Below are positions 2,234-30,807 of a stretch of 46,939 bases of DNA, in pieces. Source of the stretch: a candidate division CPR3 bacterium 4484_211. GTDB taxonomy: Bacteria; Patescibacteriota; 4484-211. Numbering within the stretch: position 1 is the first letter of the stretch; every line of letters starts with the position of its first letter. The DNA is taken from the NCBI GenBank assembly GCA_002084955.1, contig MZGJ01000002.1, positions 1 to 46,939 on the forward strand, read 5' to 3'. A program made the translations under genes and the position numbers. The notes below the pieces were generated by a model. That model made no database searches, was not told the origin of the DNA, and saw only the letters and a program-made list of their open reading frames with translations.

Positions 2234-2241
2234 AACATCTG

Positions 2242-3351: not shown

Positions 3352-3353
3352 GT

Positions 3354-5217: not shown

Positions 5218-5321
5218 GGTAAATTAATAACCAAATTCTAAGTCAGAAATTCAAAACTGTTTAGTATTTTGGATTTTGGACATTTGATATTGTTTGTTAT
5301 TTGGTGCTTGATTATTGTGAT

Positions 5322-6251: not shown

Positions 6252-6472
6252 TGGTATTTAATAGTTCAGCCGTTTTGCGCATTTGTTTTATTGATGTCTA
6301 TTTACGTTAACAAAAGGAGATTTTCCGTGTGGCGGAAAGCCGTGTCTATATCCATAAGACGTGGACAAATGACCTTCGTTGCGGGGAGTTCGCTCTACTT
6401 GGGCGAATTCCCAAAATTAGGGATGCTGCCGCTGAAGGGCAGGGAGATCCACGCCCTGGAATTTGTGTGGTT

Positions 6473-7660: not shown

Positions 7661-7689
7661 CTTGCATTTAGGGGCGCAATATTATGCCC

Positions 7690-8898: not shown

Positions 8899-8913
8899 CA
8901 GATTGAGTGTAAC

Positions 8914-9213
8914 GGCCGGGACATAATTTTAAGATTTAACTATAAAGCTCCACCGTGTTGGGAGCCGATGTATTTTTCTTGCAGGACTACGCGCTTGAAG
9001 AGAAGCAAGGTCGTAAAATGTCAAATTAAAAATGCCCAATGTCAAACCAGATCCAAATGACAAATCTCAAATAAGGCCCAAATCACAATTTCTAAACTCT
9101 AAATACGGGAAAGTTTTGATTATTTAAATTCTGAATTCTGAATCCTGAATTTTGAATTTGTTTGTAATTTGGTGCTTGGTTATTGTCATTATGACTATGA
9201 CAACTGGGTTGGG
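8914..9213. repeat. ~270-300 bp dispersed intergenic repeat, copy A
   Basis: Shares 'GGCCGGGACATAATTT', 'TTTCTTGCAGGACTACGCGCTTGAAGAGAAGCAA', 'AATTTGGTGCTTGGTTATTGTCATTAT' with copies B and C. Confidence 0.85.
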
Positions 9214-9376
9214 CGTTGCGTCCAATCCTTGTTGAGTATAATAATAACATTCTATGGTTTTAAAAACCTATCTTCAGAAAGCTGATCGGATGGTGTTTGG
9301 ATTTTAGAGGAGCAGGTTCCTGGAAGCTGCCGGACATTGCTGGATCTAGGCTGACAAGGTCAGTTCTCTGGAACGA

Positions 9377-10222
9377 TTAGGTTACTTGGGCTATGAGAAA
9401 TAGGTTGTTGCCCCAATATTTAAAAGGCGGCAGGGCGGAGAGTCTGGTCCAATTGGCTATTTTGCATATGGCGCGAATTAATGTTTTGGGAGATTCTTTT
9501 TGCTGGACATCCCAGCCGGAGCTTGCGTAAATAATTTTTAAGTTCCTTTTTTTAAGAAAACTGACCAATGTTTGCAAATTGGGCTCGGTGACCATGTCGT
9601 CGTCGGGGCTAAATTCTTTGCCGGAGGTAATTCTGGGATTAATTTTGTCCCAATTAAGCATAAATGGTTTGTGGAAGAGGTAATAGAAAGAAGCTATTAT
9701 TTGCTTGGCAATCTTTTTAGCTGGAGAGTATGTGGCGGTATGGGGTTTAACAAAGGGAGATCCGAAATTAATCGTCCAAAAGGCGATAAGCCCTCCTTTC
9801 TTGGTGACTCTAATCATTTCTTCAATAACCCTTTCGGGGCGGGTGAGGTGTTCCAGAGTGCCAATGTTGTAACAGAAATCAAAAGAGGCGTTGGGGAAGG
9901 GAATACTTTCGGCGTCGGCCACTTGAAATTTTAAGTGAGGATAGCTTTTCCTGGCCAGTCTAATAGCTAAGGGGCTGATGTCTATGCCGGCGGCCGAGGC
10001 CCCGGGCGGGCAAAGGTGAGACAAGTTTGTTCCTTCGCCGCAGCCGATATCAAGAATGGATCTTGCATGAGCGCAGTATCTTTTTAGAAGCTTAAACCAT
10101 GAGCTTTTAATGAACTCCTGGTCAAACTGGCGGCTAAGCTTGTAGTAGAAGGGGTTGTTCCAAGTTGCGGCTAAAAGAATATTTTTTGTGGTTTTGGCCA
10201 TTAAATTTGATTGGGGTGTCAC
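9377..10222 (-). CDS. Class I SAM-dependent methyltransferase (Methyltransf_11-like)
   Basis: 'ARSILDIGCGEGTNLSHLCPPGASAAGIDISPLAI', 'FDFCYNIGTLEHL'; start uncertain (GTG at 10222 or internal ATG). Confidence 0.85.
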   Translation of the reverse strand: MTPQSNLMAKTTKNILLAATWNNPFYYKLSRQFDQEFIKSSWFKLLKRYCAHARSILDIGCGEGTNLSHLCPPGASAAGIDISPLAIRLARKSYPHLKFQVADAESIPFPNASFDFCYNIGTLEHLTRPERVIEEMIRVTKKGGLIAFWTINFGSPFVKPHTATYSPAKKIAKQIIASFYYLFHKPFMLNWDKINPRITSGKEFSPDDDMVTEPNLQTLVSFLKKRNLKIIYASSGWDVQQKESPKTLIRAICKIANWTRLSALPPFKYWGNNLFLIAQVT

Positions 10223-10977
10223 CCTTTCAACTTTTTATATTTCCAATAACTCATAAATTCGTGGTACCCGGCGAAAAAGGAGAGAATTAGTCCTCTCCAT
10301 CCTTCAAGAATTCCTCTTTGGCGAATGTAGATGCTGAAGAAACGGGCGATGGGGCGGAAAAGAAGATAGCTAACTGCCGCAGGCGGCTTTTTTCTCTGAG
10401 CTAATTTGCCTGCCTCAAACTCAATGTAGCGGCGGACTTTAAAGAGATAATCTTTGAAGTCGTAGTATGAGTGGTGTTCGTAGGGGATGTTAATGGTACC
10501 GGTTGGCCCATTGGTGATAGTTACCTGTTCATGAACATGTTCGTTTTTGTAGTATCCATGTCCTTTCTTAAAAAATCTCGTCTGGTAGTCAGGATACCAG
10601 CCGCAGTGCCTAATCCATTTCCCTAAGAAATACCCCTTGCGGGGGAAGCGGTAGGCAACAGGATTTTCTCTCATTTGTTTAAGCACGCGTTTAATTTCTT
10701 GGGCGAGTTTGGAGGGGATCGTTTCATCGGCGTCAAGAATTAAAATCCAGTCACCAGAGGCGGCCTCAATGCCTTTATTTCTCATGGACATCATTCCGGG
10801 GTCATTGGGAGTGGAGATTATCTTGGTGGCGTATTTTTGAGCAACCTCTATGGTTTTGTCTGTGCTTTGACCGTCTACCAGAATAATCTCGTTAACCCAA
10901 AGAATGGACTTTAAGGCCTTTTCTATTTTTCTTTCTTCGTTAAACGAGGTGATGACGGCTGATATGGTCGGATTCAT
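10219..10977 (-). CDS. GT2 glycosyltransferase (KdtX/WaaE-like)
   Basis: 'ISAVITSFNEERKIEKALKSILWVNEIILVDGQSTDKT', 'WILILDADETI', 'CGWYPDYQTRFFKKG'. Confidence 0.9.
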   Translation of the reverse strand: MNPTISAVITSFNEERKIEKALKSILWVNEIILVDGQSTDKTIEVAQKYATKIISTPNDPGMMSMRNKGIEAASGDWILILDADETIPSKLAQEIKRVLKQMRENPVAYRFPRKGYFLGKWIRHCGWYPDYQTRFFKKGHGYYKNEHVHEQVTITNGPTGTINIPYEHHSYYDFKDYLFKVRRYIEFEAGKLAQRKKPPAAVSYLLFRPIARFFSIYIRQRGILEGWRGLILSFFAGYHEFMSYWKYKKLKG

Positions 10978-10993
10978 GGCTAGTTTAGGTAGA

Positions 10994-11032
10994 AAAAGGG
11001 TGTCACCCTTGAAAAGGGTGACACCCTTTTTT
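10994..11032. repeat. GGGTGTCACCC hairpin element
   Basis: AAAAAGGGTGTCACCCTTgaAAAGGGTGACACCCTTTTTT; overlaps the last codons and stop of the 11003..11839 CDS. Confidence 0.8.
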
Positions 11033-11839
11033 ATGAAGTACTGACACGGTTATTCCTACTGTTCCACAACAATAGTCTACCATTTTAAGAAAGCATAAGC
11101 CCAGAGCGTAAACTGGATTGGCAATTAAAAGCCTGATCTTTTTTAGATATACCGGCCTAAAAGGAGTAAATCGCCTCAAGGCTTTTAATTTGTTCTTAAC
11201 AACGTATTTTCGCAACATTTTGCCATAGTAGTACTTCTTTTTAGATATTTCTATTATATTTTGGCTTTCGTAATGTTTCAGAGCGGGCTGGCCAGTGCCG
11301 ATTTTGGCATTGGCTTTTCTTAGTCTGTCGTCTAAGTCGTAATCCTCAGCGGCAACAAGACTCTCGTCGTAACCTTTTATGGCGAGGAATATGTCTTTTT
11401 TTATAAAACGGGCCGCATTTAGATGCCACTCCCCGTGAGCCATTTGTTTTTCCAAGTTGCGGCACTGAGCCCAGAAATTTGGTGCAGGGTTTATTTCTGG
11501 TATTGTTAATGCAGAATAATCCTCGTTCTGGCACTCTTTGATGTAATTTGATAGCGCCCGGGGGGCTAATTCCATGTCGGCGTCGAGAATTAGTAAATAA
11601 TTTCCCTGGGCTCTAGTGACAGCAAAATTGCGTTGCGCGCTTCGTTCCGGGCCTTTAAGATAGACTTTGTTGGTGAACTTTCGGGCTATTTTTACTGTGG
11701 CATCAGTTGAGAAGTTGTCAACAACAATGATTTCGTAATGAGGATAAGTTTGCTGTTTAATGCTTTCCAGCAACCTTTCCAGGTTTTTCTCTTCATTTTT
11801 GGTAGAGACGATGATGGAAATTAGTGGGTTTTGAGACAT
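11003..11839 (-). CDS. GT2 glycosyltransferase
   Basis: 'ISIIVSTKNEEKNLERLLESIKQQTYPHYEIIVVDNFSTDAT', 'LLILDADMEL'. Confidence 0.9.
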   Translation of the reverse strand: MSQNPLISIIVSTKNEEKNLERLLESIKQQTYPHYEIIVVDNFSTDATVKIARKFTNKVYLKGPERSAQRNFAVTRAQGNYLLILDADMELAPRALSNYIKECQNEDYSALTIPEINPAPNFWAQCRNLEKQMAHGEWHLNAARFIKKDIFLAIKGYDESLVAAEDYDLDDRLRKANAKIGTGQPALKHYESQNIIEISKKKYYYGKMLRKYVVKNKLKALRRFTPFRPVYLKKIRLLIANPVYALGLCFLKMVDYCCGTVGITVSVLHKKGCHPFQG

Positions 11840-11849
11840 TTTTATATGT

Positions 11850-11990
11850 GATTTCTACTAAAATCCCAAATCTCAAGCACCAAATAGCAAACAATTTCAA
11901 ATGTTCGAAACTCAAAGTTCCAAACGGTTTGAAAATTGGAATTTGGAAATTAGAATTTGTTTGGAATTTGTGATTTGTAATTTGGTCATC
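11850..11990. repeat. Long imperfect inverted repeat, intergenic
   Basis: Left 'CAAATCTCAAGCACCAAATAGCAAAC...CAAAGTTCCAAAC', right 'GTTTGAAAATTGGAATTTGG...TTGGAATTTGTGATTTGTAATTTGG'. Confidence 0.6.
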
Positions 11991-11999
11991 GATCAGTTA

Positions 12000-13430
12000 T
12001 TAGGTCAATTTTCCGAACACATTTTTGATTCCATACATAATCCTATCCTTATTTAACCTTGATACTAAAGCAGGAATATGCGAGGGGCGCATATAGAATT
12101 TTCTATACGCCGCTGCCTGGTGCTCTAGCAGTTTTTCATGCGGCAGTTGTTTTAATTCTAGGCTTTTGCCAATTTGCTTCCCGTAAACTCTCCAGTCCTC
12201 GGTTAATATTTTAAGTCCGCCTACGTGTTTTTTGGCCATTTGGGCTACCTCGGTTCCGGGAAAGGGGACCAGTATGGCAAAGGTGGCGTATCGGGTTGGC
12301 AGAGAGCAGGCCAGATTAATTGTTTTTCTTATAGTTTCTTCAGTTTCAAACGGATGACCCAAAATAAATTCGGCTTCGGTGGTAATTCCTGCTTCGTGGC
12401 ACAGCCTAAAGGCTCTTTTTATCTGGTTAATGTTAATACCTTTGCCGATTTTTTCGAGAATTTCCTCGTCGCCTGATTCTACGCCAATTCCCAAATAATT
12501 GCATCCAGATTGTTTCATTAAATTGATTAATTCTTTGTTTAGCAAGAGATTAACTCGTCCGCCAGACGCCCATCTAATTTTGCGGTGCAGGTTTCTTTTG
12601 ATAAGTTCTTCACACATTTCTTGGGCAATTTTTTGGTTAACACCGAAAGTTCCTTCAATAAAGTGGATTTGAGTCGCCCCAAACTTTTCCACATTTCTTT
12701 GGACCTCATCTACAATTCTTTGGGCGCTTTTATACCGCATAGTTCTTCCCATCGTGCGGTAACAAAAGATACAGCCAAAAGGACAACCTCGTGCGCCCTC
12801 TACCGGAAGCTCCAGATTTTTGTAATTTCTTCTAAAAAGGTTGATTCGTGCGGCGAATCCGCTGGCAAGATTGGATCCGGAGTAGTTTTGCAGTTGATAC
12901 AGCTCCCAGGGCGGGTAGGGGAGAGCGTTAATATTTTCTATCAGCGTCCGGGGCGGGTTGATGATTATCCGAGTGTTTGATCTAAAGCAAATTCCCGCGA
13001 TGTCGCTTAAAGATCTGCGGTTGTCGGCTATTTCTAGCATTGTTTGCTCTCCTTCGCCAATGGCGGCGATGTCAAAAGAAGAAAATTCTTTAAGTGTTCT
13101 CTGGGGAACAGCAGAGGCGTGGGGTCCGCCGATGACTACTTTGGCTTTGGGGTAGATGCTTTTTACCCAGGCGGCGGTGGCGGCGGCGGCGTGTACTTCG
13201 CTGGTGTAGGCATTAATGCCTACTAGGCCAGGTTGGAATTTTTTAATTTTCTTTTTAATCTCAAATTCATTTTGTGTGACCGGATCGACCAACTGAGCTT
13301 CAATATTGTTCTCCAGTAAAAAAGAGAGAATGGAGGCTATGCCCAGTCTTAGGATGCGGTTTGCCATCTCCAAATTGTCTGCGCGTTGTCTAATTATTGG
13401 CCCGTTGAAGAGCAATGTTTTTAAGGACAT
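12000..13430 (-). CDS. B12-binding radical SAM protein
   Basis: 'LVGINAYTSEVHAAAATAAWVKSIYPKAKVVIGGPHASAVPQRTL' cobalamin-binding-like; 'EGARGCPFGCIFCYRTMGR' CxxxCxxC. Confidence 0.9.
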   Translation of the reverse strand: MSLKTLLFNGPIIRQRADNLEMANRILRLGIASILSFLLENNIEAQLVDPVTQNEFEIKKKIKKFQPGLVGINAYTSEVHAAAATAAWVKSIYPKAKVVIGGPHASAVPQRTLKEFSSFDIAAIGEGEQTMLEIADNRRSLSDIAGICFRSNTRIIINPPRTLIENINALPYPPWELYQLQNYSGSNLASGFAARINLFRRNYKNLELPVEGARGCPFGCIFCYRTMGRTMRYKSAQRIVDEVQRNVEKFGATQIHFIEGTFGVNQKIAQEMCEELIKRNLHRKIRWASGGRVNLLLNKELINLMKQSGCNYLGIGVESGDEEILEKIGKGININQIKRAFRLCHEAGITTEAEFILGHPFETEETIRKTINLACSLPTRYATFAILVPFPGTEVAQMAKKHVGGLKILTEDWRVYGKQIGKSLELKQLPHEKLLEHQAAAYRKFYMRPSHIPALVSRLNKDRIMYGIKNVFGKLT

Positions 13431-14502
13431 CTAGGGTTATTTTAGCACTTTTATCCCAGGTGAGTTTTTGATTTAGTATCTGAGCTTGCCTGCCTAATTT
13501 CATGCGCAGATTTGAGTTGTGTATAAGTTCGTTCAGCTTTCTTTCCAGTTCTTCCGGTGTGCTTTTTTGGCAGATGAGCCCTGTTTTTTTGTGTCTGACC
13601 GCATCCCGCAACCCAGGGGAGTTGTAAACCACGGCCGGCGTCCCCAATACCCCGGCTTCTGTAATGTTTAGTCCCCAGCCTTCACGCGCAGAGGTGGAAA
13701 TAATTGCCCAGGCACGCTGTAGAAGTTCTGCTTTCTTCTTCTCATCAATGTATCCCCAAAAGGATATTTTGGATTCTAATCCAAATTCTCGGGCAAGTTT
13801 TATTAGATGATTTTTGTAGCGGCTTTCTCCTCGTCCGACAATCCAAAGTCTGGCATTTACTTTCTGGCTTAGGAGATAAAAGGCTTTAATGGTTTCTTCT
13901 ATTTGTTTGGCGGGTGTTAGCCGGCTAAGGGAGATAAATGTAGGCAGCTTTTCCTTGGCCCAATTTAAACTTGACGGGTTTAGATTAGGAGCTAAAGGGA
14001 AGGTGGTGACCTTTTGGATCTTGGCGGCTTTTAGTTCGTTATATGTTGATTGTGATGCTGTTAGAAAGGGGATTTGGCGATAGAGTCTAAGATATAGATA
14101 TTCGGCTTTGTGCCCAATTGTGCTTAATGGACGGGGCAGACTTTTGTCCCAGAGATTTTTGGCGATTTCAAAAATTAGGGCAACTTTTGGCTCTTTCACA
14201 TAAAGGGGTGTGAAGAAAGGCACCCAGTGTATTTGGTCGATAACCAGATCAACTTTCCCCTTGAAGTATTTCTGATAGTGCCAGAAGGCCCAGAAAAAAT
14301 GGGTGGTTTCCGGGTTGCCTCTGCGGGTGATGTCTATGCCCTCCAGTTTTTCTTTTGGATGACATTGGGGGTAGGTGGATGAGAGAAGAGCAACCTGGTG
14401 GCCGTTTTTTACCCATCTTTTTGCCAGTTCGTGGGTGACTATTTCCGCCCCTCCCGATGAAGGGTTTTTGATGTCTTTCCAGTTTAGGATTAGAATTCTC
14501 AT
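13390..14502 (-). CDS. Glycosyltransferase family 4 protein
   Basis: 'NPSSGGAEIVTHELAKRWVKNGHQVALLSS', 'FISLSRLTPAKQIEETIKAF', 'STSAREGWGLNITEAGVLGTPAVVYNSPGLRDAV'. Confidence 0.9.
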   Translation of the reverse strand: MRILILNWKDIKNPSSGGAEIVTHELAKRWVKNGHQVALLSSTYPQCHPKEKLEGIDITRRGNPETTHFFWAFWHYQKYFKGKVDLVIDQIHWVPFFTPLYVKEPKVALIFEIAKNLWDKSLPRPLSTIGHKAEYLYLRLYRQIPFLTASQSTYNELKAAKIQKVTTFPLAPNLNPSSLNWAKEKLPTFISLSRLTPAKQIEETIKAFYLLSQKVNARLWIVGRGESRYKNHLIKLAREFGLESKISFWGYIDEKKKAELLQRAWAIISTSAREGWGLNITEAGVLGTPAVVYNSPGLRDAVRHKKTGLICQKSTPEELERKLNELIHNSNLRMKLGRQAQILNQKLTWDKSAKITLDVLKNIALQRANN

Positions 14503-15320
14503 TTTATTTTTATAGCAGGGAGGGATTCGGCCTCTGAGGGATAGATGTAGGGCAGGAACTTTTTTTGGTAATGGTTGCGCAGATAGCGCCGGTAGAAAAC
14601 GGCCGCGGTGTCCCTTAAAATGTTGAAGACGGCTTCTATACCTACGGTACTGCCAATTTTTTGGTGGGTGAGGACAACCGGAGCTTCGATGATCTTAGTA
14701 AAACCATTTTGCCGGGCGGCAACTAGAACTTCTATGTCAAAAGCCCATCGCTTAATGGTTAGTTTGGGAATTATTTTTTCCAGCACCCGGCGCCGAAATA
14801 TTTTTAGGCCGAGCTGAGTGTCTCTAATATTAAGACCAAAAAGTAAGCGGGTTAAATGTTGGTAGGCTTTACTCATGAGGCATCTCGCCCGGGGATAATT
14901 TGTTTGCGAGTCCGGATGTCGGCGGGAGCCGACGACAATATCGGCATTGTGATAAATGAGGTATTCAATAAGGAGATGAATTTGGCGGGGGTGAAGGTCT
15001 AAATCGGCATCAAAAAAAACAATGGGGTCGCCTGAAGCTTTAGTAAAGCCGTAGCAGAGAGCAAATCCCTTGCCTACATTAAGAGGATAACTATAGATTT
15101 TAAAGTTTTTTTGCCGCGAGTTGGCAACATAATCTATTGCCTTTCTTAGAGTGTTGTCCTGACTGCCGTCGTTAATTAAGATAACTTCGTAAGGATAGGG
15201 GAGTTTTTCGAGCTCTTCTGCAAGGATGCGGAGATAGTCGTTAAGGTTGTGTTCCTTATTGTAGGCGGGGACGATAATGGAAATTTTTTTAAAGTCGTTT
15301 TTAAATTCGGGTATACTCAT
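14499..15320 (-). CDS. GT2, dolichyl/undecaprenyl-phosphate sugar transferase-like
   Basis: 'ISIIVPAYNKEHNLNDYLRIL', 'VILINDGSQDNT', 'DPIVFFDADLDLHPRQI', 'NIRDTQLGLKIFRR'. Confidence 0.9.
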   Translation of the reverse strand: MSIPEFKNDFKKISIIVPAYNKEHNLNDYLRILAEELEKLPYPYEVILINDGSQDNTLRKAIDYVANSRQKNFKIYSYPLNVGKGFALCYGFTKASGDPIVFFDADLDLHPRQIHLLIEYLIYHNADIVVGSRRHPDSQTNYPRARCLMSKAYQHLTRLLFGLNIRDTQLGLKIFRRRVLEKIIPKLTIKRWAFDIEVLVAARQNGFTKIIEAPVVLTHQKIGSTVGIEAVFNILRDTAAVFYRRYLRNHYQKKFLPYIYPSEAESLPAIKIK

Positions 15321-18335: not shown

Positions 18336-18659
18336 CTAAAGAGGAGATTCTTCTTTGTAGTCGGGGAAGAGTTCCTTTTTTAGATTAAAGTTTTGCTTGC
18401 GGCAGAGGTTGAAAGCCTTCAGCAATGTTTTAACTCCGGCCAGGTTTATCCCTTTTTCTTGAGTAAGAAATTGAATGAATTTAATCTCCATGATGTTCTT
18501 AGGGCTGTAGAGCCGCCGGTTGGTGCCAGTCCGATACGGGGTTAAAACACCTTTGCTTTCGTAAAGCATGAGCGTCCTTGGATGCAATCCGGCCAGATCG
18601 GCGGCTACCGAGATGCTAAATAATGGCTTGTTACTTATTTTCCTTCCTGTCATAAGCAA
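18336..18659 (-). CDS. MerR-family regulator (HspR-like)
   Basis: 'PLFSISVAADLAGLHPRTLMLYESKGVLTPYRTGTNRRLYSPKNIMEIKFIQFLTQEKGINLAGVKTLL'. Confidence 0.9.
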   Translation of the reverse strand: MLMTGRKISNKPLFSISVAADLAGLHPRTLMLYESKGVLTPYRTGTNRRLYSPKNIMEIKFIQFLTQEKGINLAGVKTLLKAFNLCRKQNFNLKKELFPDYKEESPL

Positions 18660-19405: not shown

Positions 19406-22400
19406 ATGGCTAAACCTGCCCGGCTTAAACTTATTGCACTATCGCGCGTTCTCAAGAATAAGGAAAGTGTTGCCGCTGTTTGCCGAAGTTTAAGCATTGC
19501 TCCTAAAACCTTTTACCGTTGGAAGCGGAGATTTGAAGCGCTTCCCCCAGATAGACAAAAAGATTTGTTAAGTGGGGGGAGCTCTCTGCGTCTTTTATCT
19601 CCCCAAGCTGAGGATTTCCGTCGGGAAATTCTAGATTTAGTAATAAGGTGCCCCGGGTTGAGTGTGCGCCAACTCTACAAGAAGCTCGCCAGGCAAGAAA
19701 TTAGAGTTAGCTTTGCTTCGTTTATTTCTTTTCTTAGGGAACATAAATTGTCAACTCGCCGCCAGCGTCTTAATTATGCTCGGTTGCACGGCATGATTGT
19801 TGCCGAGAGAAGGAAGAGGGGAAAAATTGGAATGCCGGTGGATAAATTTGGCGCCCGGACGCCGAAATTAAGGAAAGAAATGGTGGAAAAGGTTATCCGG
19901 CAGGGATATCCGGTGAGTGAGGTCTGTAAGGAATTTGGAGTTTCACGGCCAAGTTTTTATAAATGGAAGAGGCGTTACGAAAAGGCCAGAGTTGACGGTC
20001 GAGATTTGTTGGAGGCTATGGAAGATCGGGTGGTGGCGGGAGAAAATCATCATCAAAGTTTAAATGAAAAGCTCCAGAAAAAAATTCTGGATTTGGCGGT
20101 AATGGTGCCCCACTTCTCTTCCGCCGAGATAGCCCGGAGACTAAAAGGAGTAACCAATCACGGAGTACAGAGGGTTTTGGAGAAAAATGGACTAAGTTTA
20201 ACGGCACACCGGGAAATATTTGCGAGGCAGGTTAAAGACGGTAAGGTGGCCTATCCGCTTTCCTGGGAAATGAAGCTGGCTTTTGTTTGGGAGAAAATTT
20301 GGCGTCTTCCTTCGCCGCCAGCCTTCTTTTTTAGAGATTTTGTTAAGAAGTTCATTCTTTGGGGCTTTTTAATTCTTTTTAGTTTGTTAAGCCTGGTTGG
20401 CCTTTACAGCTGGGGGCGAGTCTTGTTTACCACCCCGGGAGCCTCGCCGCTGGGTTTGACTCTGGCTTCTATTAGTTTGCTTATTGGGGGTATTTTCTTT
20501 CTTTACTCTTTTAAATACTATATTTCTTTATCTTTGGTGCTTTCTTTTTCCAAGAGAGGAGGGTTTGGAGAAAATAATCATAAAAATCAATCAAACCTAA
20601 AATCCGCATTTAGAAATAGATTGCAGGGGCTGGTTCAAGAAGGGAATAGGCCGAGGGGCGTTTTCTCTTATCTTCTTAGGCTGGCCAATCCGGTTATGAG
20701 AGGAGTAAATGAAGACAAGGGGAAGGAGAGGCCGGGTTTTTGGTCACATTTTTTTGGATTATCTGGGAGCAGGAAGAAAGATTCGAATGGGGCATTGATT
20801 AACGGGGAGATTGGTCAACTAAACTTGGAAAGGAAACCTTTTGTCTCCATTCATTTGCCGATGTACAACGAAAAGAGGGTGGCCAGAAGGTTAATTGAGG
20901 CCTGTGCTCAGATAGATTATTTTGATGAAGCAGGCTCTCCCAATTTTGAGATTCTGGTTTGCGACGACAGTACCGATGAGACGACTAGAATTGTTGAGCA
21001 AGTAGCGGAGGAGATTAATGCGAGTCTAAACTCCCTAGAGCCAGGCTCTAAAGAACTCCCAGAGCCTGGCTCTTATTCTTCAGGCCCGCGCCGGCTCGTA
21101 AGGATTCTCCACCGTCCTACCCGTGCGGGCTTTAAAGGAGGTGCGCTGAAATATGCTCTGGAGAAAATGAATCCCAGAACCGAGTTTGTGGTAGTTTTTG
21201 ACGCCGATTTTGTCCCCTTTCCAGACACTATTGAACAGTTCTTAAAACATTTTCAATTCGTCTGCCGAGGGTTAAGGTGGTCTAAAATTAAAAAGAGCAA
21301 GGTGGCGGCGGTAACCGGTTATCAGTGGCACGTTTTGAACAAGAGTGAGAACTGGATAACCCGCGGGGTAAGGACTGAGTATTCCGGTTCCTATCTTATT
21401 GAAAGACCGGCCAGGGAGTTAATGGGGGGGTTAAAGATAATTCACGGATCGGTGTATATGATACGGGCTGATGTTTTAAGAAACATCGGTTGGGGAACTT
21501 CGATTACCGAAGACTTTGAACTCACCCTTAGACTCTATGAGAAGGGGTATAGAGTGGTTTTTACTCCCTATGTACAAGCGCCGGCGGAATGTGTTTCCAC
21601 GCTTAAGAGGTTAATTAGGCAGAGGATGAGGTGGGCTGAGGGACACAGCAATAATATTAAGAAAATGTTTGGGAGGTTGATGTTTGGGAGGTTGATGTTT
21701 GGGAGGTGGAGGGAATCTAGGTTAGATGGCCATTCAGCCATTCAACAATCCAGCCATCTAAGACAAAATGGTCAAATGGTCAAATGGTTAAATGGCTTGC
21801 TGGGACGTCGATCTGCTGATAATTCTCGCTTTAGTCCTTCCCGTCTTTCATTAGCCGAAAAGATAGAGTTGCTTTTTCTTTCTCCCTATTATCTTCAGGC
21901 GGCTCTTTTCCTTATTGGCAACCTTAGCTGGTTAATTGCGGAGCTGGTCTTTAGGGTAAGACTGCCTTTTTGGACATCTATCTGGGGATGGTCTATGGTC
22001 TTAACCAATCTCTTTGCTCTGCCGCTGATGAACGGGGTGGGATTGTTTGTGGAAAGAAGCGAGAAGGAAGACTATTTAGGGCTTTTGTCCTTTATTGCCC
22101 TATGCTATTTGGTGGTTCCTTTTCAGGCCTATGCGAGTATCAAGGGCTTTTTGGAGAAAGAAGAGGGGACTTGGTTTAGAACTCCCAAAACCGGGAAGGT
22201 AACCATTTCGCTGATGAAATCCCGGTTCGCTCGCCTGCTTAAGATATTTTTCCCTTTTGGAGACCAGAAAGCCGCCGAGGAAGAAGGCCCGGCTTTGTCT
22301 GCTCAGAGCCCAGCTCTTAAAAGGCTTTCAGAGTTGGGGTCTAAAGGGAAGCTTGGCTTTTGTTCTCCCAGCTTTTCCGGTATTGGGAATGGGTTGAGAC

Positions 22401-25400
22401 CTGTTGGCCATGGGGTATTGGCTGTTTTATTGATCGTTTCGACTCTAATGTATAGCTTTTTGCCGTTAATTGAAAGTGGAGTGGTTCCTGTATCGGCTAA
22501 AGGAAAGATAGGGATAGGGGAACAGGAGTCAGGAGCCAGAAGTCAAAAGTCAGAAGTTAGGGATACGGAAACAGCAAACTCGGCGCTAAAGAGCGAGCCC
22601 GGTATTGTTTTGACTGATAACAGAAGTGAAAGCTCAAATCTCAAAGCTCAAAGTTCAAAACCACAGTTTAAAACTCAAAGCGGGGACGACAATGAATTAG
22701 CAGGAAGTGCAGGTTCAAAACTAAAGGTTGAGGAGCACAATCCTCAAAAGACCCCTGAAAAATTTTATCTTTCTTTGGATCAAGTGGCGGCTATTTTAAT
22801 TAAAAATGAAGGGGAGAGAACCAATAGGGTGGCGGAAGCAATAGAGTTGGTGGCTAAAGAAGGGGGCGGGGAGTTAAGCCCTGAGTTAAAAGAAGGAGTG
22901 GGATCGCCTTTTGGCGGTTGGGGGGGATCTCTTGCCTCTCTAAAGGAAAGACTAAAAAAGGAGTTGGGCAGCCGATTAATTGTGGTTAATGAGGAGAAAT
23001 TTCTTCCGTACTACTGGCTTCAAGTTGGCGGCAAATATTTGGTTCTGTTGCGGTCCCAAAGTGGGGTTCAGGCCTATATTTTGGATAAAAACTCGCTGCA
23101 GATTGCTCTCTTGGAGCTTAAAGATGGATCTGATAAGTTTGAACTTAAAGTATTAAGCAAGCCGGTGTACCAGTACCGGACGGGTTGTAGTAGCGCAACT
23201 CACTGTGTGGTGGAAGATGGCCCTGGCGTCGAAGGGAAAGAATCTGGCTCTAGGATTTCCTCAGAGCCGAGCTTGGGGAATTCCCTAGATTTTGACTCTT
23301 TTCCTCACCAGGCTCAATTTTGGCACGACTACACCGAGCTTTTCCCGTCGGAAATTAAGGTTGAGAAAAGTTCTGACTATGTTACTTTTACCCAAAGGTA
23401 CAATCTGGTGGCGGCTGGCGCTAAGTCGGGCAGAGTGGTAGGGGAGACCGAACTGAAGGTTGGATTCAACGGGCAAGAATATATCAATAAGCTGACTTTC
23501 AGGCTGGGGGACAATGAAAATGTTAATCGGGTTTTGTGGGAGAATCGGATTGTGGATGCAGGTGGGTGTGCTGCAAATTTAGGAAATGATAATGGGAAGA
23601 GGGAGCGTCCTTCTGAGAAAGATGTTCCCTGTCCGGTTACACCGACTGTTGTTCCTACTCCTTTGCCGGAGACGGTTCTAACCCCTTCCTTGTTTACTCC
23701 TATTCCTACTCCTACTTCTACTTTATCTCCATTTCCAACTCTAACTCCAACTCCAACTCCAACTCCTATTACCGCCGAGGTGTATTCTGCAACCGATAAT
23801 AGGGTGACACCCTCATTAGGGGTGTCACCCTATGAAACCCCCACTCCCAGGCCGCAGCCCAGCCCGGCTCCCTCTTCACAAGCCCCGTCTGGCGGGAGTT
23901 TGTGGCAGGCGTTGCTGGGGTTTGCTAAATGGTTGCAGCAGACTTTGGGTGGAGGCATAGAAAGGGTGGTTTCAGCGGCTTTGGATTTATTTAGCAAATT
24001 GTTTCATGGAGCGCAAATATCTTTTTCCCTGTTTGTTGCCAGACCAGTTCTGGCGGAGGAAAAGGATTCTTCTTTATCTGCCAAATCTTTTGACCCTCTA
24101 CCACCTGCTGATAGTTTTACCTGCGGCGATGTGGTGATTGACTGGAGTGATTTTATAACTGCCGAGGAAAAGAGCCCGGCTCTTGGGGAATTTTTAGAGC
24201 CGGGCTCTGGGGGGTCGGCGGCGAAAGCTACCAGCTACAAGTCTTCGACGGTGAGCTCGGTCGAACCGCTAACAGCTATCAGTTCGCCCGTTATTGCTTT
24301 TTACCCCTCCGGTATTCGGGGAGCCTTGGAGGTAGACCCGACGGTGAGTGTGGCAACCGCGACCAATACAATCACGGTTCAAAGCTCTGATTATGACAAC
24401 TCCGGCTCCACCGGATTTAAACTGGTTTTCGATGATACTAAGGGCGGAACAATTGATGAGTTTTATCATGACTCAGTTGGTTCTGGCAGTACTAATATTG
24501 TTTCTGCTAACAGCGGCTATGATGCTCTCTTTGATATTGAATACGGGGCCACTACCCTTTCCGCTGACACAACTGGATCGCTTACCCTGATCGAGGCGGA
24601 TAATAACAGGGCTGTCATTAAGGCCGTGGGCAATGTGACTGCTAATGATATTGCCACCGTCACCTATACTATTTATCCCGATGGGCAAATATACATGAAG
24701 GTTTCTTTAGAAATTCATGACGGCGAAAGAAACGCTGAGGATGATATGTTTTTCTTAATTGAAGACTACGCCGGTTATCAGGCTACCTATTCTTCGGTTG
24801 ATGATACTAACAAGGCAGCCGCTCTCCTACCAGACGGAGATGGTTTTGATACAGCCCTTATTCCTTATGATAGCTCTATTGTAGGTACAGTTGATGCTGC
24901 TCAAAGTTCGGGTAGTGACTACATCATGGTCAAATACGACTCGGCCGCTACCGGCTATGACGATGAGTCCATAGCTACTAGTTCTTGGTTCCTCGACCTT
25001 TCTGAAAGCGCTTACACTTCCCCTCTGCTGACTGCCAAAAGAAATGGGTATCGCAATCCCGTCAATTTAGCCGACGGATTAACGATTGGTTCGGAGTGGG
25101 ACAACAGCACCTTTCGGGTGACTACTTATGAATTTGAGGATGCTGAGTTTAGTGGAGCAAGCTATACATTATCTTTAAATAATAATTTGGCGGAGAATTA
25201 TTTTACTATGATAAATGGAGCTAATGATCAAACGAGTTCCCGGGGGCCTGACGATGACTGCGTCAGAGTAACTGGGGACCCTCATGGTAATTTTTCGACT
25301 GTTACCGACGCTGATCAGATTGAATTAACCCGCGCTTCCTCAGTAAATGATTGGGTTGGAGCAATAACAATAGTTGAGTGTTTACGGGACTGCTCTGATT

Positions 25401-28400
25401 CGGGTTTTCAACTAAAAGAAGTCAGGGAGGTAGCCCTGCCGGCTGGAACTGCTGGTTCAACTCAATCGGTAACCGATACCTTGTCTGCTGACCATACCGC
25501 GAATACTGTTCCGTTTGGGGGGCGTTTCGGCGGCGGTTTTGCTACCAGCTCTACCGGTGCTTCTAATACTACCTATGGTGTAACAAGAGGAATGAAGATT
25601 TATAAAGCCGGTACTAATCAGATTAAAATTGACAGGTATGGAGCTGAAAGTGATGTTCCTCAGGCAGGGACAGTAACTGTCTATATTGTTGAGTGGGGTA
25701 GTGGCTGGACGGTTCAGAATGTAAATGTAACTGGCACTAATGATGGCGATGGTGTTAATGCCACTGGGGAATATGACACAGCGGCGATTAATTCTGTAGT
25801 TCGGGAAAATACCTGGGTCTGGGGTTGTGGTTTTTCTCATGATGATGGCTTGGGTGATGGTGCCATGGGACAAGTGATTACTTTGGGCGATGGAGTTAAT
25901 GAAAATGCGTCGGAGACAACTGTCGCAGTGGGTTGTGAAGGAGCTCAAATCAGCCCTGGGAGGGACTTTCAGGTTTATGTCATGGAGCATCCTCAACTGA
26001 AGGTGGATTGGTCGTTTAAAACAGATGGTGATACTGGGCCATCAAGTGGATATCAAGAACTTAATTATACAATTGCTGGTGCTAGTAACAGCGAAGCATA
26101 TGATAATGCTTCTTCGGATGTGCGGTATACGGAAGGGTATAGAATTCCTTTGTTTTATACTTCTTCAGGAGGGACAGGCGAGGCTTATTCTCGCTCCGGC
26201 GGTTGGGGCTTGAGAATTGATTCAGATACAAATCTTCACTATTGGCGGACTTATGCTGGCCAGCCGTTCGCCGGCTGGGTGCAAATTATTGATTTTGGTT
26301 TTGTGAATTACAAAGGCGGGCTAAGCGGCTCCTTTTGGCGACCAGAAGGGGTCTACGGACTAGACGCCACTTCATCAACTGCTTATGACAAAGCCTCAAT
26401 GGTTCAGTTTGATATAGACGGAGGTACTTATACTCGGTATAAACCAGCTTTTAAGATCAGGAAATGGCGGGATACGGATTTGCCAGCGGCGGTGACGTTG
26501 GAGGGAAGCACTTTGTATCCGGGCACTTCTTCTAGTGATTCAGAAAACTACAATGCTTCTTTTAAGCCATTTTCCGAGGCCTGGTTTGATGACAACGGCG
26601 CTGAAGATCAGATTGCCGATGGCGGAGATACAGATTCGGCTGATGAATATCTTGGCGAAGCGGAAAATGACTACACCTTAACCGGGCTGGCCGATACCGA
26701 TTATTTGTACCTGGGTTCCGATGACCAGTTTACCGGCGTTAATTATTATCTTTCCACAAAAGGAACGGGAGGGGCAATTACTTGGCAGTATTGGAACGGA
26801 AGTGCTTGGACTAATCTTACCAATATTACAGATGAAGTTAATGGCAGTAAGGACCTATTGACAACTAATGGCAGTTTTTACTTCAGTGAGCCTGCTGATT
26901 GGACTGCTAAGACATTAACTTCGGGCAGCGAGGGCATTGCCGGAGAGCGAGAGCTTTATTGGATTAGAGGTGACGTGACCACTTCTTTTACCACCGCGCC
27001 GGTAATTGACCGGATGTGGACTGATATTTTAGTGTTCCAATATCTTGGTAATATTTCTTCTGATGATCAAACCTTTGTTATTTCCTCTGATCCAATTCGA
27101 TTATCTAAAGGCTCTATTCAGATTGACGTGCCCAATCGCTACCGAGCGATTATGAATACGGGAGATACGGATGATTATATAACCTTTTATGATCGGGCTG
27201 AGGATGACGCGGCTCCGGACGCAACCCACGAATTCAAGGGACCTTGTGTACTGGAAGGTTCAACCACCTATTGTTTAAGGGATGATGACAGTCGAATTAC
27301 CACTATTCTGGAAAGCAATTCCACCCGGGTCAAGGTGAGAGTTGAGGGTAAGTTTAACAATGAGGCAGGCAGTGATTATTTAGATGATGAGTCGGCTACG
27401 CCCGAGGATTTAACGGTTATTGTTGACTACACTTTTACTACCGAAGGAGTCTTTGTGGAAAACATCACTGATTTTAGGACGACCGGGGTAACTTTGGACG
27501 CTGACTCAGGCCATAACGGCTATGAATGGCTAGGTGTTTGGGCCGATGTTACCGATGCGGCTTTTGATGATGCGGCCACGCCGACGATTCTTTATGGTGA
27601 TGGAGAAACAGAAAGCAATACCAGTACCGATGGGGCCGAGTTTGAAGACACGAACAAGTATGTGGTTATGCCCGGTGCCGGGGCAGATACCTATCAGGAT
27701 GCCTTTATAGGAATTATGCGAGCCGGTTGGTATGACGACAGCGGGGGCGTGGATGAGTGGCAATGGGATGAGGCTAATGATGGTACTCAGGATCTGATTG
27801 CCGCCCAAGAACAAAACCATCTTACGAAAGGTATTCACTATGCCAAATGGTTTTTCCTTATGCTGGCTGAGGATGACTTGGACACTGAAGCGGGAAGAGA
27901 GGGCTATGTCAATGACTTCAGAAACCCGGATATTCTCACCTACACCACCGGCTCAGAATGGAACGACGCTTCGGGAGGCTCAGCAGGCTCCGCCCCTGCC
28001 CCCGCCAGTCCGGGTCTAAAATTTGATGGGAGTGATGATTATGTAGATATTGGTACTGGACCTACTGGTGTACAAACTGTGGAATTTTGGGTGTATCCAG
28101 AAACTACTACCGAATATCTTGTCAATTTAACCAGCACTACTGATTATATCTGGGTTGATGCCGGAACTGTCACCGCCACTGGATTTACTAGCCCTACGAT
28201 CTACGTTAATGGCGCTGTTTCTAGTACTTTGGTAGCAGATAAATGGCAGCATATAGCGATAACTACGGGTACTGCGGAAAATGCCAGCAACTTGGACATT
28301 GGCAGGACTGCAGATGCTAATTATTTAGGAGGCAAAATTGATGAGGTTAGACTGTGGAATGATGTGCGGACCGCAGCTGAGATTCAACAGAATATGTTTA

Positions 28401-30169
28401 AGCAAATTGATCCTTCATCTGCTAACTTGGTTGGCTACTGGCGTTTTAACGAAAACACTGGCACAACTGCTTTTGATGAAACAACTAATAATAACGATGG
28501 GACCTTGACTAACGGGCCAATATGGACCACCGGCTTTGTTCCTGATCACTACAGCGAAGCCGAGGGGATTTATACTGTTGACGCCTCAGGTTCTCAGGTG
28601 GAGTTAGATATTGATGGAGGCAGTAATGTTTCTACCTTGCTTAATGGAGCGGTGAGCGCCGGCGCCACTTCAATTACGGTTGACTCTACCACCGGTTTCC
28701 CTTCTTCAGGCGTGGCTTATATTGACGGAGATAAATTTTCCTATACAGGAACTACCTCCACCACCTTTACCGGCATTCCTTCTAGTGGAGAACTTTCGGT
28801 TATTGGTCATGCGGACAACACTGTTGTTTCTCTAATGAACCGCCACAAACCCCAGTTTAAGATAAGAAAATATCGGGAAAACAGCAAGCCCTCTTCAGTT
28901 TCTTTGGAAGGCTCAACTTTAACCGAAGGCACGGATTACAATGTTGATTATAAACCCATCTCCGACGCCTATTTTGCCGATGAGCTGACCTGGTATTCAA
29001 CATTGGAGAGTGAGTCGGCAATTACTAGTCCCGACGTAGGTAGCGGGGGAACAAACAGTGGAGCAACATTTACTGCTGGGAGATATGGTAATGGTGCTTT
29101 GATGGATGCCAGCGGAGAAGACTTTCATATTCCCAGCTCTAATTTTTCTAAATCTGCCAGTGCGATTGAGTTTTGGTTTAAACCCGATTGGGATTTTACA
29201 GACAATGATAACCATGTACTTGTAGGGAACTACTATGATTCTTCTAATCTGTGGTATCTGTATAAATTGGGCGATGGGACATCAAGTTATCTAAGATTTC
29301 GTGCCACCTCCAATGGGGTTAATTGCAACTATTATATCAATTATCCCGAGATTAACTGGAGTGCCAATGAGTGGGTTCATATCAGAATGCAGTGGGATGA
29401 TAGTGCTCCCTTAGCCACTCAACAAAGGGTTTTCATTAATGGAGTAGAGCCTTCCCATACTGATGATACTGATGACTTAGACACAAGTTCTTGGACATGG
29501 AATGCCAATTGGACTATTAGCAGTGGTTCGGCAGGCTTTGATGCGGGTGGAATTTTTGATGAGATCAAAGTTTATAACCTAGCAGATACTCCGACAAGCC
29601 TTGCCCAGGGCGGCGACACGGCTGATTCTGATGAATACCTTTTCTCTGAAACTCGTGATTATACTTTGGATTTTGAACCCGTGGACAGCAATAATAGAGG
29701 AGAGTATGTATTTTTTGGCTCTGATTCCATGTTTTCCGGGATTAATGTTGATTTAGAGACCAACGGCGCTACCGGCGGAACCCTTAATCTTGACTGGGAA
29801 TACTGGGATGGGGATAGCTGGGCTAACCTGGAAAGCATCTCCGGCTTTACCGATGGAACCAATAACTTAACCCAGGATGGCGCTGTTTATTGGGATGAAA
29901 CTCCCACCAACTGGCGGCCTTACTCGGTTAATGGCTCTACCGATCTTTACTATATCCGGGCTTCTCTTAATAATTCCTCGGGCACCTATACCACCAATCC
30001 AGTGGAGAATTTCATCAAGACAGATATTTTAATTTTGCAGTATCTTGGCGATATTACCAGCAATGACCAGACATTGGTGGTGGTGCCGGAATATCTTTGG
30101 CCATTTTTGGGGGTTGTGCCGGCCTTGCCTGGCTTGTTGCGGCGAAGGAGGAAGAAGCGTAAAATTTAG
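19406..30169 (+). CDS. Giant 3587-aa multidomain protein: IS3-type HTH x2 + TM + processive GT2 + TM + PT-rich linker + beta-sandwich/LamG ectodomain + C-terminal sorting-like tail
   Basis: HTH 'VAAVCRSLSIAPKTFYRWKRRFEA' and 'VSEVCKEFGVSRPSFYKWKRRYEK'; GT2 'DDSTDE','DADFVP','TEDFELTLRL','RQRMRWAEGH', 'FRTPKTGK'; LamG-like 'LKFDGSDDYVDIG...KIDEVRLWNDVRTAAEI'; C-term 'VPEYLWPFLGVVPALPGLLRRRRKKRKI'. Confidence 0.85.
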   Translation: MAKPARLKLIALSRVLKNKESVAAVCRSLSIAPKTFYRWKRRFEALPPDRQKDLLSGGSSLRLLSPQAEDFRREILDLVIRCPGLSVRQLYKKLARQEIRVSFASFISFLREHKLSTRRQRLNYARLHGMIVAERRKRGKIGMPVDKFGARTPKLRKEMVEKVIRQGYPVSEVCKEFGVSRPSFYKWKRRYEKARVDGRDLLEAMEDRVVAGENHHQSLNEKLQKKILDLAVMVPHFSSAEIARRLKGVTNHGVQRVLEKNGLSLTAHREIFARQVKDGKVAYPLSWEMKLAFVWEKIWRLPSPPAFFFRDFVKKFILWGFLILFSLLSLVGLYSWGRVLFTTPGASPLGLTLASISLLIGGIFFLYSFKYYISLSLVLSFSKRGGFGENNHKNQSNLKSAFRNRLQGLVQEGNRPRGVFSYLLRLANPVMRGVNEDKGKERPGFWSHFFGLSGSRKKDSNGALINGEIGQLNLERKPFVSIHLPMYNEKRVARRLIEACAQIDYFDEAGSPNFEILVCDDSTDETTRIVEQVAEEINASLNSLEPGSKELPEPGSYSSGPRRLVRILHRPTRAGFKGGALKYALEKMNPRTEFVVVFDADFVPFPDTIEQFLKHFQFVCRGLRWSKIKKSKVAAVTGYQWHVLNKSENWITRGVRTEYSGSYLIERPARELMGGLKIIHGSVYMIRADVLRNIGWGTSITEDFELTLRLYEKGYRVVFTPYVQAPAECVSTLKRLIRQRMRWAEGHSNNIKKMFGRLMFGRLMFGRWRESRLDGHSAIQQSSHLRQNGQMVKWLNGLLGRRSADNSRFSPSRLSLAEKIELLFLSPYYLQAALFLIGNLSWLIAELVFRVRLPFWTSIWGWSMVLTNLFALPLMNGVGLFVERSEKEDYLGLLSFIALCYLVVPFQAYASIKGFLEKEEGTWFRTPKTGKVTISLMKSRFARLLKIFFPFGDQKAAEEEGPALSAQSPALKRLSELGSKGKLGFCSPSFSGIGNGLRPVGHGVLAVLLIVSTLMYSFLPLIESGVVPVSAKGKIGIGEQESGARSQKSEVRDTETANSALKSEPGIVLTDNRSESSNLKAQSSKPQFKTQSGDDNELAGSAGSKLKVEEHNPQKTPEKFYLSLDQVAAILIKNEGERTNRVAEAIELVAKEGGGELSPELKEGVGSPFGGWGGSLASLKERLKKELGSRLIVVNEEKFLPYYWLQVGGKYLVLLRSQSGVQAYILDKNSLQIALLELKDGSDKFELKVLSKPVYQYRTGCSSATHCVVEDGPGVEGKESGSRISSEPSLGNSLDFDSFPHQAQFWHDYTELFPSEIKVEKSSDYVTFTQRYNLVAAGAKSGRVVGETELKVGFNGQEYINKLTFRLGDNENVNRVLWENRIVDAGGCAANLGNDNGKRERPSEKDVPCPVTPTVVPTPLPETVLTPSLFTPIPTPTSTLSPFPTLTPTPTPTPITAEVYSATDNRVTPSLGVSPYETPTPRPQPSPAPSSQAPSGGSLWQALLGFAKWLQQTLGGGIERVVSAALDLFSKLFHGAQISFSLFVARPVLAEEKDSSLSAKSFDPLPPADSFTCGDVVIDWSDFITAEEKSPALGEFLEPGSGGSAAKATSYKSSTVSSVEPLTAISSPVIAFYPSGIRGALEVDPTVSVATATNTITVQSSDYDNSGSTGFKLVFDDTKGGTIDEFYHDSVGSGSTNIVSANSGYDALFDIEYGATTLSADTTGSLTLIEADNNRAVIKAVGNVTANDIATVTYTIYPDGQIYMKVSLEIHDGERNAEDDMFFLIEDYAGYQATYSSVDDTNKAAALLPDGDGFDTALIPYDSSIVGTVDAAQSSGSDYIMVKYDSAATGYDDESIATSSWFLDLSESAYTSPLLTAKRNGYRNPVNLADGLTIGSEWDNSTFRVTTYEFEDAEFSGASYTLSLNNNLAENYFTMINGANDQTSSRGPDDDCVRVTGDPHGNFSTVTDADQIELTRASSVNDWVGAITIVECLRDCSDSGFQLKEVREVALPAGTAGSTQSVTDTLSADHTANTVPFGGRFGGGFATSSTGASNTTYGVTRGMKIYKAGTNQIKIDRYGAESDVPQAGTVTVYIVEWGSGWTVQNVNVTGTNDGDGVNATGEYDTAAINSVVRENTWVWGCGFSHDDGLGDGAMGQVITLGDGVNENASETTVAVGCEGAQISPGRDFQVYVMEHPQLKVDWSFKTDGDTGPSSGYQELNYTIAGASNSEAYDNASSDVRYTEGYRIPLFYTSSGGTGEAYSRSGGWGLRIDSDTNLHYWRTYAGQPFAGWVQIIDFGFVNYKGGLSGSFWRPEGVYGLDATSSTAYDKASMVQFDIDGGTYTRYKPAFKIRKWRDTDLPAAVTLEGSTLYPGTSSSDSENYNASFKPFSEAWFDDNGAEDQIADGGDTDSADEYLGEAENDYTLTGLADTDYLYLGSDDQFTGVNYYLSTKGTGGAITWQYWNGSAWTNLTNITDEVNGSKDLLTTNGSFYFSEPADWTAKTLTSGSEGIAGERELYWIRGDVTTSFTTAPVIDRMWTDILVFQYLGNISSDDQTFVISSDPIRLSKGSIQIDVPNRYRAIMNTGDTDDYITFYDRAEDDAAPDATHEFKGPCVLEGSTTYCLRDDDSRITTILESNSTRVKVRVEGKFNNEAGSDYLDDESATPEDLTVIVDYTFTTEGVFVENITDFRTTGVTLDADSGHNGYEWLGVWADVTDAAFDDAATPTILYGDGETESNTSTDGAEFEDTNKYVVMPGAGADTYQDAFIGIMRAGWYDDSGGVDEWQWDEANDGTQDLIAAQEQNHLTKGIHYAKWFFLMLAEDDLDTEAGREGYVNDFRNPDILTYTTGSEWNDASGGSAGSAPAPASPGLKFDGSDDYVDIGTGPTGVQTVEFWVYPETTTEYLVNLTSTTDYIWVDAGTVTATGFTSPTIYVNGAVSSTLVADKWQHIAITTGTAENASNLDIGRTADANYLGGKIDEVRLWNDVRTAAEIQQNMFKQIDPSSANLVGYWRFNENTGTTAFDETTNNNDGTLTNGPIWTTGFVPDHYSEAEGIYTVDASGSQVELDIDGGSNVSTLLNGAVSAGATSITVDSTTGFPSSGVAYIDGDKFSYTGTTSTTFTGIPSSGELSVIGHADNTVVSLMNRHKPQFKIRKYRENSKPSSVSLEGSTLTEGTDYNVDYKPISDAYFADELTWYSTLESESAITSPDVGSGGTNSGATFTAGRYGNGALMDASGEDFHIPSSNFSKSASAIEFWFKPDWDFTDNDNHVLVGNYYDSSNLWYLYKLGDGTSSYLRFRATSNGVNCNYYINYPEINWSANEWVHIRMQWDDSAPLATQQRVFINGVEPSHTDDTDDLDTSSWTWNANWTISSGSAGFDAGGIFDEIKVYNLADTPTSLAQGGDTADSDEYLFSETRDYTLDFEPVDSNNRGEYVFFGSDSMFSGINVDLETNGATGGTLNLDWEYWDGDSWANLESISGFTDGTNNLTQDGAVYWDETPTNWRPYSVNGSTDLYYIRASLNNSSGTYTTNPVENFIKTDILILQYLGDITSNDQTLVVVPEYLWPFLGVVPALPGLLRRRRKKRKI
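21665..21709 (+). repeat. 15-bp tandem repeat x3 inside the giant ORF
   Basis: atgtttgggaggttg x2 + atgtttgggaggtgg encoding MFGRL MFGRL MFGRW. Confidence 0.9.
21722..21795. repeat. Inverted repeat plus AAATGGTC tandem inside the giant ORF
   Basis: TTAGATGGC ... GCCATCTAA perfect 9-bp arms followed by AAATGGTCAAATGGTCAAATGGTTAAATGGC. Confidence 0.8.
23801..23831. repeat. GGGTGACACCC hairpin element inside the giant ORF
   Basis: AGGGTGACACCCtcattaGGGGTGTCACCCT. Confidence 0.85.
24169..24212. repeat. Paired AGAGCCCGGCTCT palindromes inside the giant ORF
   Basis: AAGAGCCCGGCTCTTGGGGAATTTTTAGAGCCGGGCTCTGGGG. Confidence 0.85.
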
Positions 30170-30228: not shown

Positions 30229-30807
30229 ATGCAACCTTATAAGAAGCTTTTTACCTATTGGTATTCTCTGATAATTTATGACCTAACGGTCAAATTCTGC
30301 AATCGTTGGATCAGGAGTTGGAAACTCAGGGAGCAAATGAATGGCGCCGCCCGTTCGGGCAAACAAAACATTGTCGAGGGCTCGGAGGGGATGGCGACTA
30401 GTTTAAAGACGGGAATTAAGCTAACCAATGTAGCTAAGGCTAGTATAGAGGAGCTTTTGGGAGACCTGGAGGATTTTTTAAGACAGCGGGGACTAACGCG
30501 CTGGTCGAAAGACGACCAGCGTGTTAAAGTTTTTCGCGGTAAAGCCGCAAAACTCGTAAGTAACTTAAGTAGCTTAAGTAATTTACGACTCCCTGCAAAG
30601 CAGGTAGAAGAAAAGCAGCGCAAGCTGCTAGGGCAGCTGGGGCTACCCAGAGAATCTGAGGAAGCAGCCAACTTACTGCTCACTTTATGCCACCAAGCTA
30701 CTTATCTTTTAAATAAGCAAGTAAAGTCCCTTGAGAAAAAGCATCAAACAGAAGGTGGTTACAGTGAGAAGCTTTACCAACGCCGGATTAAGTACCGGAA
30801 AGGTTGA
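30229..30807 (+). CDS. Four-helix-bundle protein (S23/23S-IVP-like)
   Basis: 'MNGAARSGKQNIVEGSEGMATSLKTGIKLTNVAKASIEELLGDLEDFLRQRGL' with C-terminal helical suffix 'AANLLLTLCHQATYLLNKQVKSLE'. Confidence 0.85.
   Translation: MQPYKKLFTYWYSLIIYDLTVKFCNRWIRSWKLREQMNGAARSGKQNIVEGSEGMATSLKTGIKLTNVAKASIEELLGDLEDFLRQRGLTRWSKDDQRVKVFRGKAAKLVSNLSSLSNLRLPAKQVEEKQRKLLGQLGLPRESEEAANLLLTLCHQATYLLNKQVKSLEKKHQTEGGYSEKLYQRRIKYRKG
30562..30604. repeat. In-gene copy of the AACTTAAGTANCTTAAG element
   Basis: aacttaagtagcttaagtaatttacgactccctgcaaagcag. Confidence 0.75.

Follow-up and report, generated by a model that had tools for sequence, protein, structure and literature searches.

The window, i.e., the whole stretch of 46,939 nucleotides that was analysed, is the entire contig C23 of an 826-kb genome and carries a giant open reading frame whose 3587 codons are open without a break, as the original prediction had claimed. 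The encoded protein (the giant) consists of N-terminal HTH units, membrane helices, a GT2 domain, further membrane helices, a large ectodomain and a C-terminal sorting signal (Table 1). About 0.75 kb of non-coding DNA lie between the gene and that of a divergent MerR-family regulator; G149 (L075), a genome of a distant family, has a homologue of this regulator in the corresponding position upstream of its giant. The gene directly 3' of the giant encodes a four-helix-bundle protein with a homologue at the same place in G001 (L050 8884-9501, minus strand). A surface-glycan cluster also adjoins the giant on the minus strand of the window (1025 to 15320); it comprises a run of glycosyltransferase genes together with genes for a methyltransferase, a flippase-like protein and a B12/radical SAM protein.

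Table 1. Positions of the giant gene, its parts and its direct neighbours in the window.
Feature	Position	Strand	Support
MerR-family regulator, divergently oriented on the 5' side of the giant	18336..18659	-	Pfam MerR_1 2.6e-16
Giant ORF, 3587 aa (HTH, two units / TM / GT2 / TM / ectodomain / CTERM)	19406..30169	+	
HTH unit 1, aa 5-140, two trihelical HTHs	19418..19825	+	Pfam, family HMM, AF2
HTH unit 2, aa 152-278, two trihelical HTHs	19859..20239	+	Pfam, family HMM, AF2
TM helices 1-2, aa 306-342 and 348-382	20321..20551	+	hydropathy, AF2
GT2 catalytic domain, aa 480-745 (D, DAD, TED, QRMRW)	20843..21640	+	Pfam, alignment, AF2
Post-GT2 membrane helices, aa 830-848, 855-883 and 890-916, and gating-loop-like FRTPKTGK, aa 924-931	21893..22198	+	
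Last TM helix before the ectodomain, aa 997-1021	22394..22468	+	hydropathy, AF2
Ectodomain: PT-rich linker, beta-rich region, LamG-like domains (best aa 3240-3397)	22469..30082	+	
Exosortase-type sorting signal: VPE, hydrophobic helix, RRRRKKRKI	30083..30166	+	
Four-helix-bundle protein (TIGR04258), directly 3' of the giant	30229..30807	+	

The same architecture, which had been proposed for a search in other CPR genomes, is present there: a profile search identified HTH-GT2 homologues in 9 of 389 genomes of a phylum-wide sample and in 14 of 192 genomes of one class, amounting to 20 genomes overall. The N-terminal region of the giant was matched by the Pfam models HTH_Tnp_1 (3.1e-17) and HTH_28 (8e-15), each in two stretches and above the cut-offs, and was modelled by AlphaFold2 as four trihelical HTHs in two units (mean pLDDT 87). 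The two HTH segments had been predicted, but their assignment to the IS3/OrfA type did not hold, as the IS481/IS630 type is nearer (NF033577, 1.6e-24, versus NF033516, 8.5e-13). Transposases of the latter type likewise carry paired HTH_28/HTH_32-type modules at their N-termini; the giant, in contrast, has no DDE catalytic domain, the best NF033577 stretch covering just positions 2-114 of 284 and remaining far below the cut-off, and its tandem HTH units are joined to a membrane protein. A fold search with the HTH model returned non-significant paired-domain matches (E 0.24), and neither a convincing HTH site array nor an Rfam family was detected in the 1.3 kb upstream of the gene. One or two HTH units were identified in all 21 readable N-termini by a family profile, which was made from 17 of the family's own sequences, six of these with independent Pfam support. 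Unit 2 was kept by every relative with a readable N-terminus. Because pN (0.25-0.36) was lower than pS (about 0.8) in three pairs in which dS was saturated, the HTH part is under purifying selection and not decaying. The units would most likely serve in DNA binding, which would tie the expression or the position of synthesis to the chromosome.

The GT2 domain was identified as PF13641 (2.6e-18, above the cut-off). It contains the complete catalytic set predicted before, i.e., DDS at 520, DAD at 599, TED at about 701 and QRMRW at 739, all conserved in the alignment, and both the two preceding TM helices and the following helices with the FRTPKTGK motif were located where they had been proposed. 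The closest fold neighbours of the model of aa 300-1090 (mean pLDDT 71) were BcsA (E 1.6e-15) and hyaluronan synthase (HAS; 1.5e-13), with a Foldseek probability of 1.00 and query TM-scores of only about 0.3-0.4. With processive GT2 synthases such as BcsA, hyaluronan synthase and PgaC, which provided the best solved-structure matches, the giant has in common the D/DAD/TED/QxxRW motifs, the predicted flanking TM helices and the gating-loop-like motif, but it differs from them by the N-terminal HTH array, by a last TM helix that opens into a large ectodomain and by the lack of a Pfam match to the PilZ domain, which is C-terminal in BcsA. By its hydrophobicity, the helix at aa 890-916 could span the membrane, and counting it as a TM helix would place the ectodomain inside. 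Following the BcsA/HAS layout, we infer that this helix is interfacial and that FRTPK is gating-loop-like, and aa 997-1021 would therefore be the exit helix.

The GT2 domain is well conserved across the giants, whereas the ectodomains vary widely. In the window, the predicted PT-rich linker was confirmed at aa 1412-1495, and the LamG-like domains were recovered as three stretches of PF13385 (3e-13; 50.6 bits versus a cut-off of 27.6). The tail of the G001 giant also matched PF13385 (75.8 bits), while the ectodomains of other giants consist of different repeats. The stretch FSLFVARPVLAEE, previously taken to resemble a second signal peptide, reached a Kyte-Doolittle peak of 1.23 over 19 residues versus a TM threshold of 1.6 and is not a clear signal peptide. 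An N-terminal signal peptide is also absent from the giant, the N-terminus being formed by the HTH units and the first hydrophobic helix beginning at aa 306.

While the HTH, GT2 and LamG parts had been recognised, the sorting signal at the C-terminus had been overlooked. This end, VPEYLWPFLGVVPALPGLLRRRRKKRKI, has the tripartite form of [V/I]PE, hydrophobic helix and basic tail that is found in exosortase and archaeosortase substrates (PMC3237569; PMC7157517). The tag was present in 19 of 19 readable giant C-termini, once as APE (G393) and once as LPE (G534), and when the pattern was scanned over 450 ORF ends, eight of the nine matches were giants. Scored with the canonical PEP-CTERM model TIGR02595, the G020 tail reached 13 bits versus a cut-off of 16, and the tail from the window did not match.

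The small membrane protein encoded beside the 3' end of the giant in G001, G003 and G020 is an exosortase/archaeosortase (TIGR04178). The enzyme scored above the TIGR04178 cut-off in four genomes including the window's own (27.5-37.4 bits versus 23), and C86, R130 and H150 were invariant in eight copies. Of 18 giant 3' ends, 15 have it as a neighbour, either immediately or after one intervening gene (L050, L052, L032, L075, L076, L077, L111, L112, L113, L114, L116, two ends in L117, L118 and L119), and none was found near the giant's end in the window, L080 and L121. In the window's own genome, the exosortase is located on a separate contig, C38 (29.7 bits, 72% identical to the G001 copy); it was missed by a PF09721 search and found with a relative's protein as query. 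Overall, 18 of the 20 giant carriers had a detectable exosortase, the exceptions being G098 and G378. Among the 389 genomes, this exosortase occurred clearly in eight, seven of which also harbour a giant, and weakly in one. Seven genomes thus had both, two the giant only and one the exosortase only (Fisher p 1.1e-12), a co-distribution that describes this subfamily and not all exosortases, as the profile was made mostly from giant-linked copies and the own-genome copy. In G003, the exosortase-only genome, the enzyme's neighbour is the tail of a giant's ectodomain.

Exosortases, as in the exosortase/PEP-CTERM (EpsH) system, were themselves found through their association with exopolysaccharide genes (PMC1569441). 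As in that system (TIGR04178/TIGR02595), a multi-pass enzyme with Cys, Arg and His is co-distributed with substrates ending in a motif, a TM helix and a basic tail; in contrast to PEP-CTERM, the motif here is [V/I]PE without the final P, scores stay below the PEP-CTERM cut-off, there are usually one or a few substrates, and the substrate would enter the membrane via the synthase and not by a signal peptide. A tripartite tail is also common to the archaeosortase A/PGF-CTERM system, in which the tail of surface proteins is cut and a lipid anchor is put in place (PMC7157517), and the G020 enzyme matches the archaeosortase C model (36.6 bits). The PGF-CTERM motif is, however, another one, and its substrates are not fused to glycosyltransferases in the literature covered.

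Contig edges end many relatives, and stop or frame breaks occur inside four giants (L080 1958-1960, L116 7106-7151, L117 and L121 4078-4103; genomes G098, G402, G542 and G534), which may represent errors or natural splits. Such observations could suggest that the giant ORF is an artefact of assembly or annotation, or a decaying fusion. This is strongly contradicted, and we give it next to no credence: the same order recurs in many genera and families and in one single-contig genome of 819 kb (G490), on account of which an assembly artefact was rejected, and pN is far below pS. Homologues are also not always encoded by separate genes, as seven loci are intact from the HTH units to the stop (window, 3587 aa; G149, 1642; G084, 2177; G490, 1399; G393, 1466; G390, 1160; G542, 1744). 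These loci are unbroken across the junction of GT2 part and ectodomain, which makes it improbable that the giant is a precursor cut at this point, synthase and adhesin acting as two proteins from one gene. A split of this kind might be seen in G402, where the frame break falls at the last TM helix and separates a GT2 ORF (873 aa) from an ectodomain ORF (713 aa) in a different frame, with the exosortase gene after them, and in the G098 giant with its one in-frame stop. However, since the MAGs are fragmented, sequencing mistakes may account for such breaks, and the window giant shows no clear second signal peptide or TM segment in this region (maximum Kyte-Doolittle 1.23). The original prediction had considered both a single chain and a cleaved precursor; the single chain of cytoplasmic HTH units, glycan synthase and surface ectodomain is supported, as its order is kept across distant families, whereas nothing was found in favour of a precursor cut between VLA and EEK. 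Processing is predicted instead at a conserved site, the C-terminal VPE tag beside the exosortase.

With respect to this tag, the VPE tail might simply anchor the giant in the membrane, with other proteins as the substrates of the exosortase, given that the two are unlinked in the window's genome and that exosortase copies outnumber the detected giants in some genomes. We regard this as quite improbable in view of the invariable presence of the tail, the frequent adjacency and the co-distribution described above, and also of the finding that no other protein of the window's own genome has a similar tail at E<=10. A realistic possibility, though one to which we assign somewhat less than even chances, is that the HTH units were exapted from transposases and, having lost DNA binding, provide the synthase with modules for oligomerisation or docking. 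It concerns the HTH part only, is compatible with the main model, and would agree with the resemblance to IS481/IS630 N-termini without a DDE domain, with the greater divergence of unit 1 and the differing number of units among relatives, and with a membrane-bound synthase, for which free regulation would be awkward. The presence of at least one unit in all readable N-termini, retained recognition helices of the SR.TFY.W type and purifying selection argue against it.

The architecture of the giant, its conservation and catalytic motifs, the sorting signal, and the linkage and co-distribution with the exosortase are established by the analysis. We consider it probable that the giant serves as the substrate in a dedicated exosortase system, being a sorted surface protein and a processive membrane-bound GT2 synthase in one chain, and from this we infer its topology, processing, glycan product, attachment target and HTH function as follows. 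The HTH units would remain cytoplasmic, while the GT2 part, of the cellulose/hyaluronan-synthase kind, would polymerise sugar and probably pass the polymer through its own TM helices. The last TM helix would run directly out into the large adhesin-like ectodomain, and the far C-terminus would re-insert as VPE-type signal, at which the partner exosortase may cut and transfer the giant to some lipid or glycan. In this arrangement, the synthase would fasten the N-terminal side of the ectodomain and the sorting product its C-terminal side, anchoring it at both ends at the site of glycan emergence. A more far-reaching version, in which one polypeptide leads from DNA-bound HTH arrays via a glycan-making pore to an adhesin joined by the exosortase to the emerging glycan or lipid carrier, forming a chromosome-to-surface link that sets where or when the coat is made, appears unlikely.

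The recurrence of the giant together with a tag-processing enzyme suggests a conserved and novel mode of cell-surface construction. To our knowledge, the acceptor for the substrates of bacterial exosortases is still open. Here, the link between exosortase and exopolysaccharide lies inside one gene, synthase and sorted protein being one chain with a dedicated enzyme, which opens the glycan-coupled hypothesis to a direct test. The arrangement further provides a named candidate surface system for the Patescibacteria, whose surface contact with their hosts is little understood. A literature search, with subscription journals mostly outside its coverage, found no publication on the giant architecture or on the fusion and exosortase in Patescibacteria/CPR.

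Class sortases were rejected as the processing enzyme of the giant: PF04203 sortases occur elsewhere, but the giant's tail carries VPE and not LPxTG. In the window's own genome, a class sortase is encoded beside a 1206-aa protein ending in LPVTG (L058 4819-9197, minus strand), representing a second sorting system. Furthermore, a family of polytopic membrane proteins of about 700 aa occurs beside the exosortase or the giant in L075, L077, L032, L079 and L113 and also in L057 (8151-10268 and 4096-6189, minus strand). No clear Pfam family was assigned to it, one member giving a weak GT-C (PMT_2) match, and two copies are located on the exosortase-carrying contig C38 of the window's own genome.
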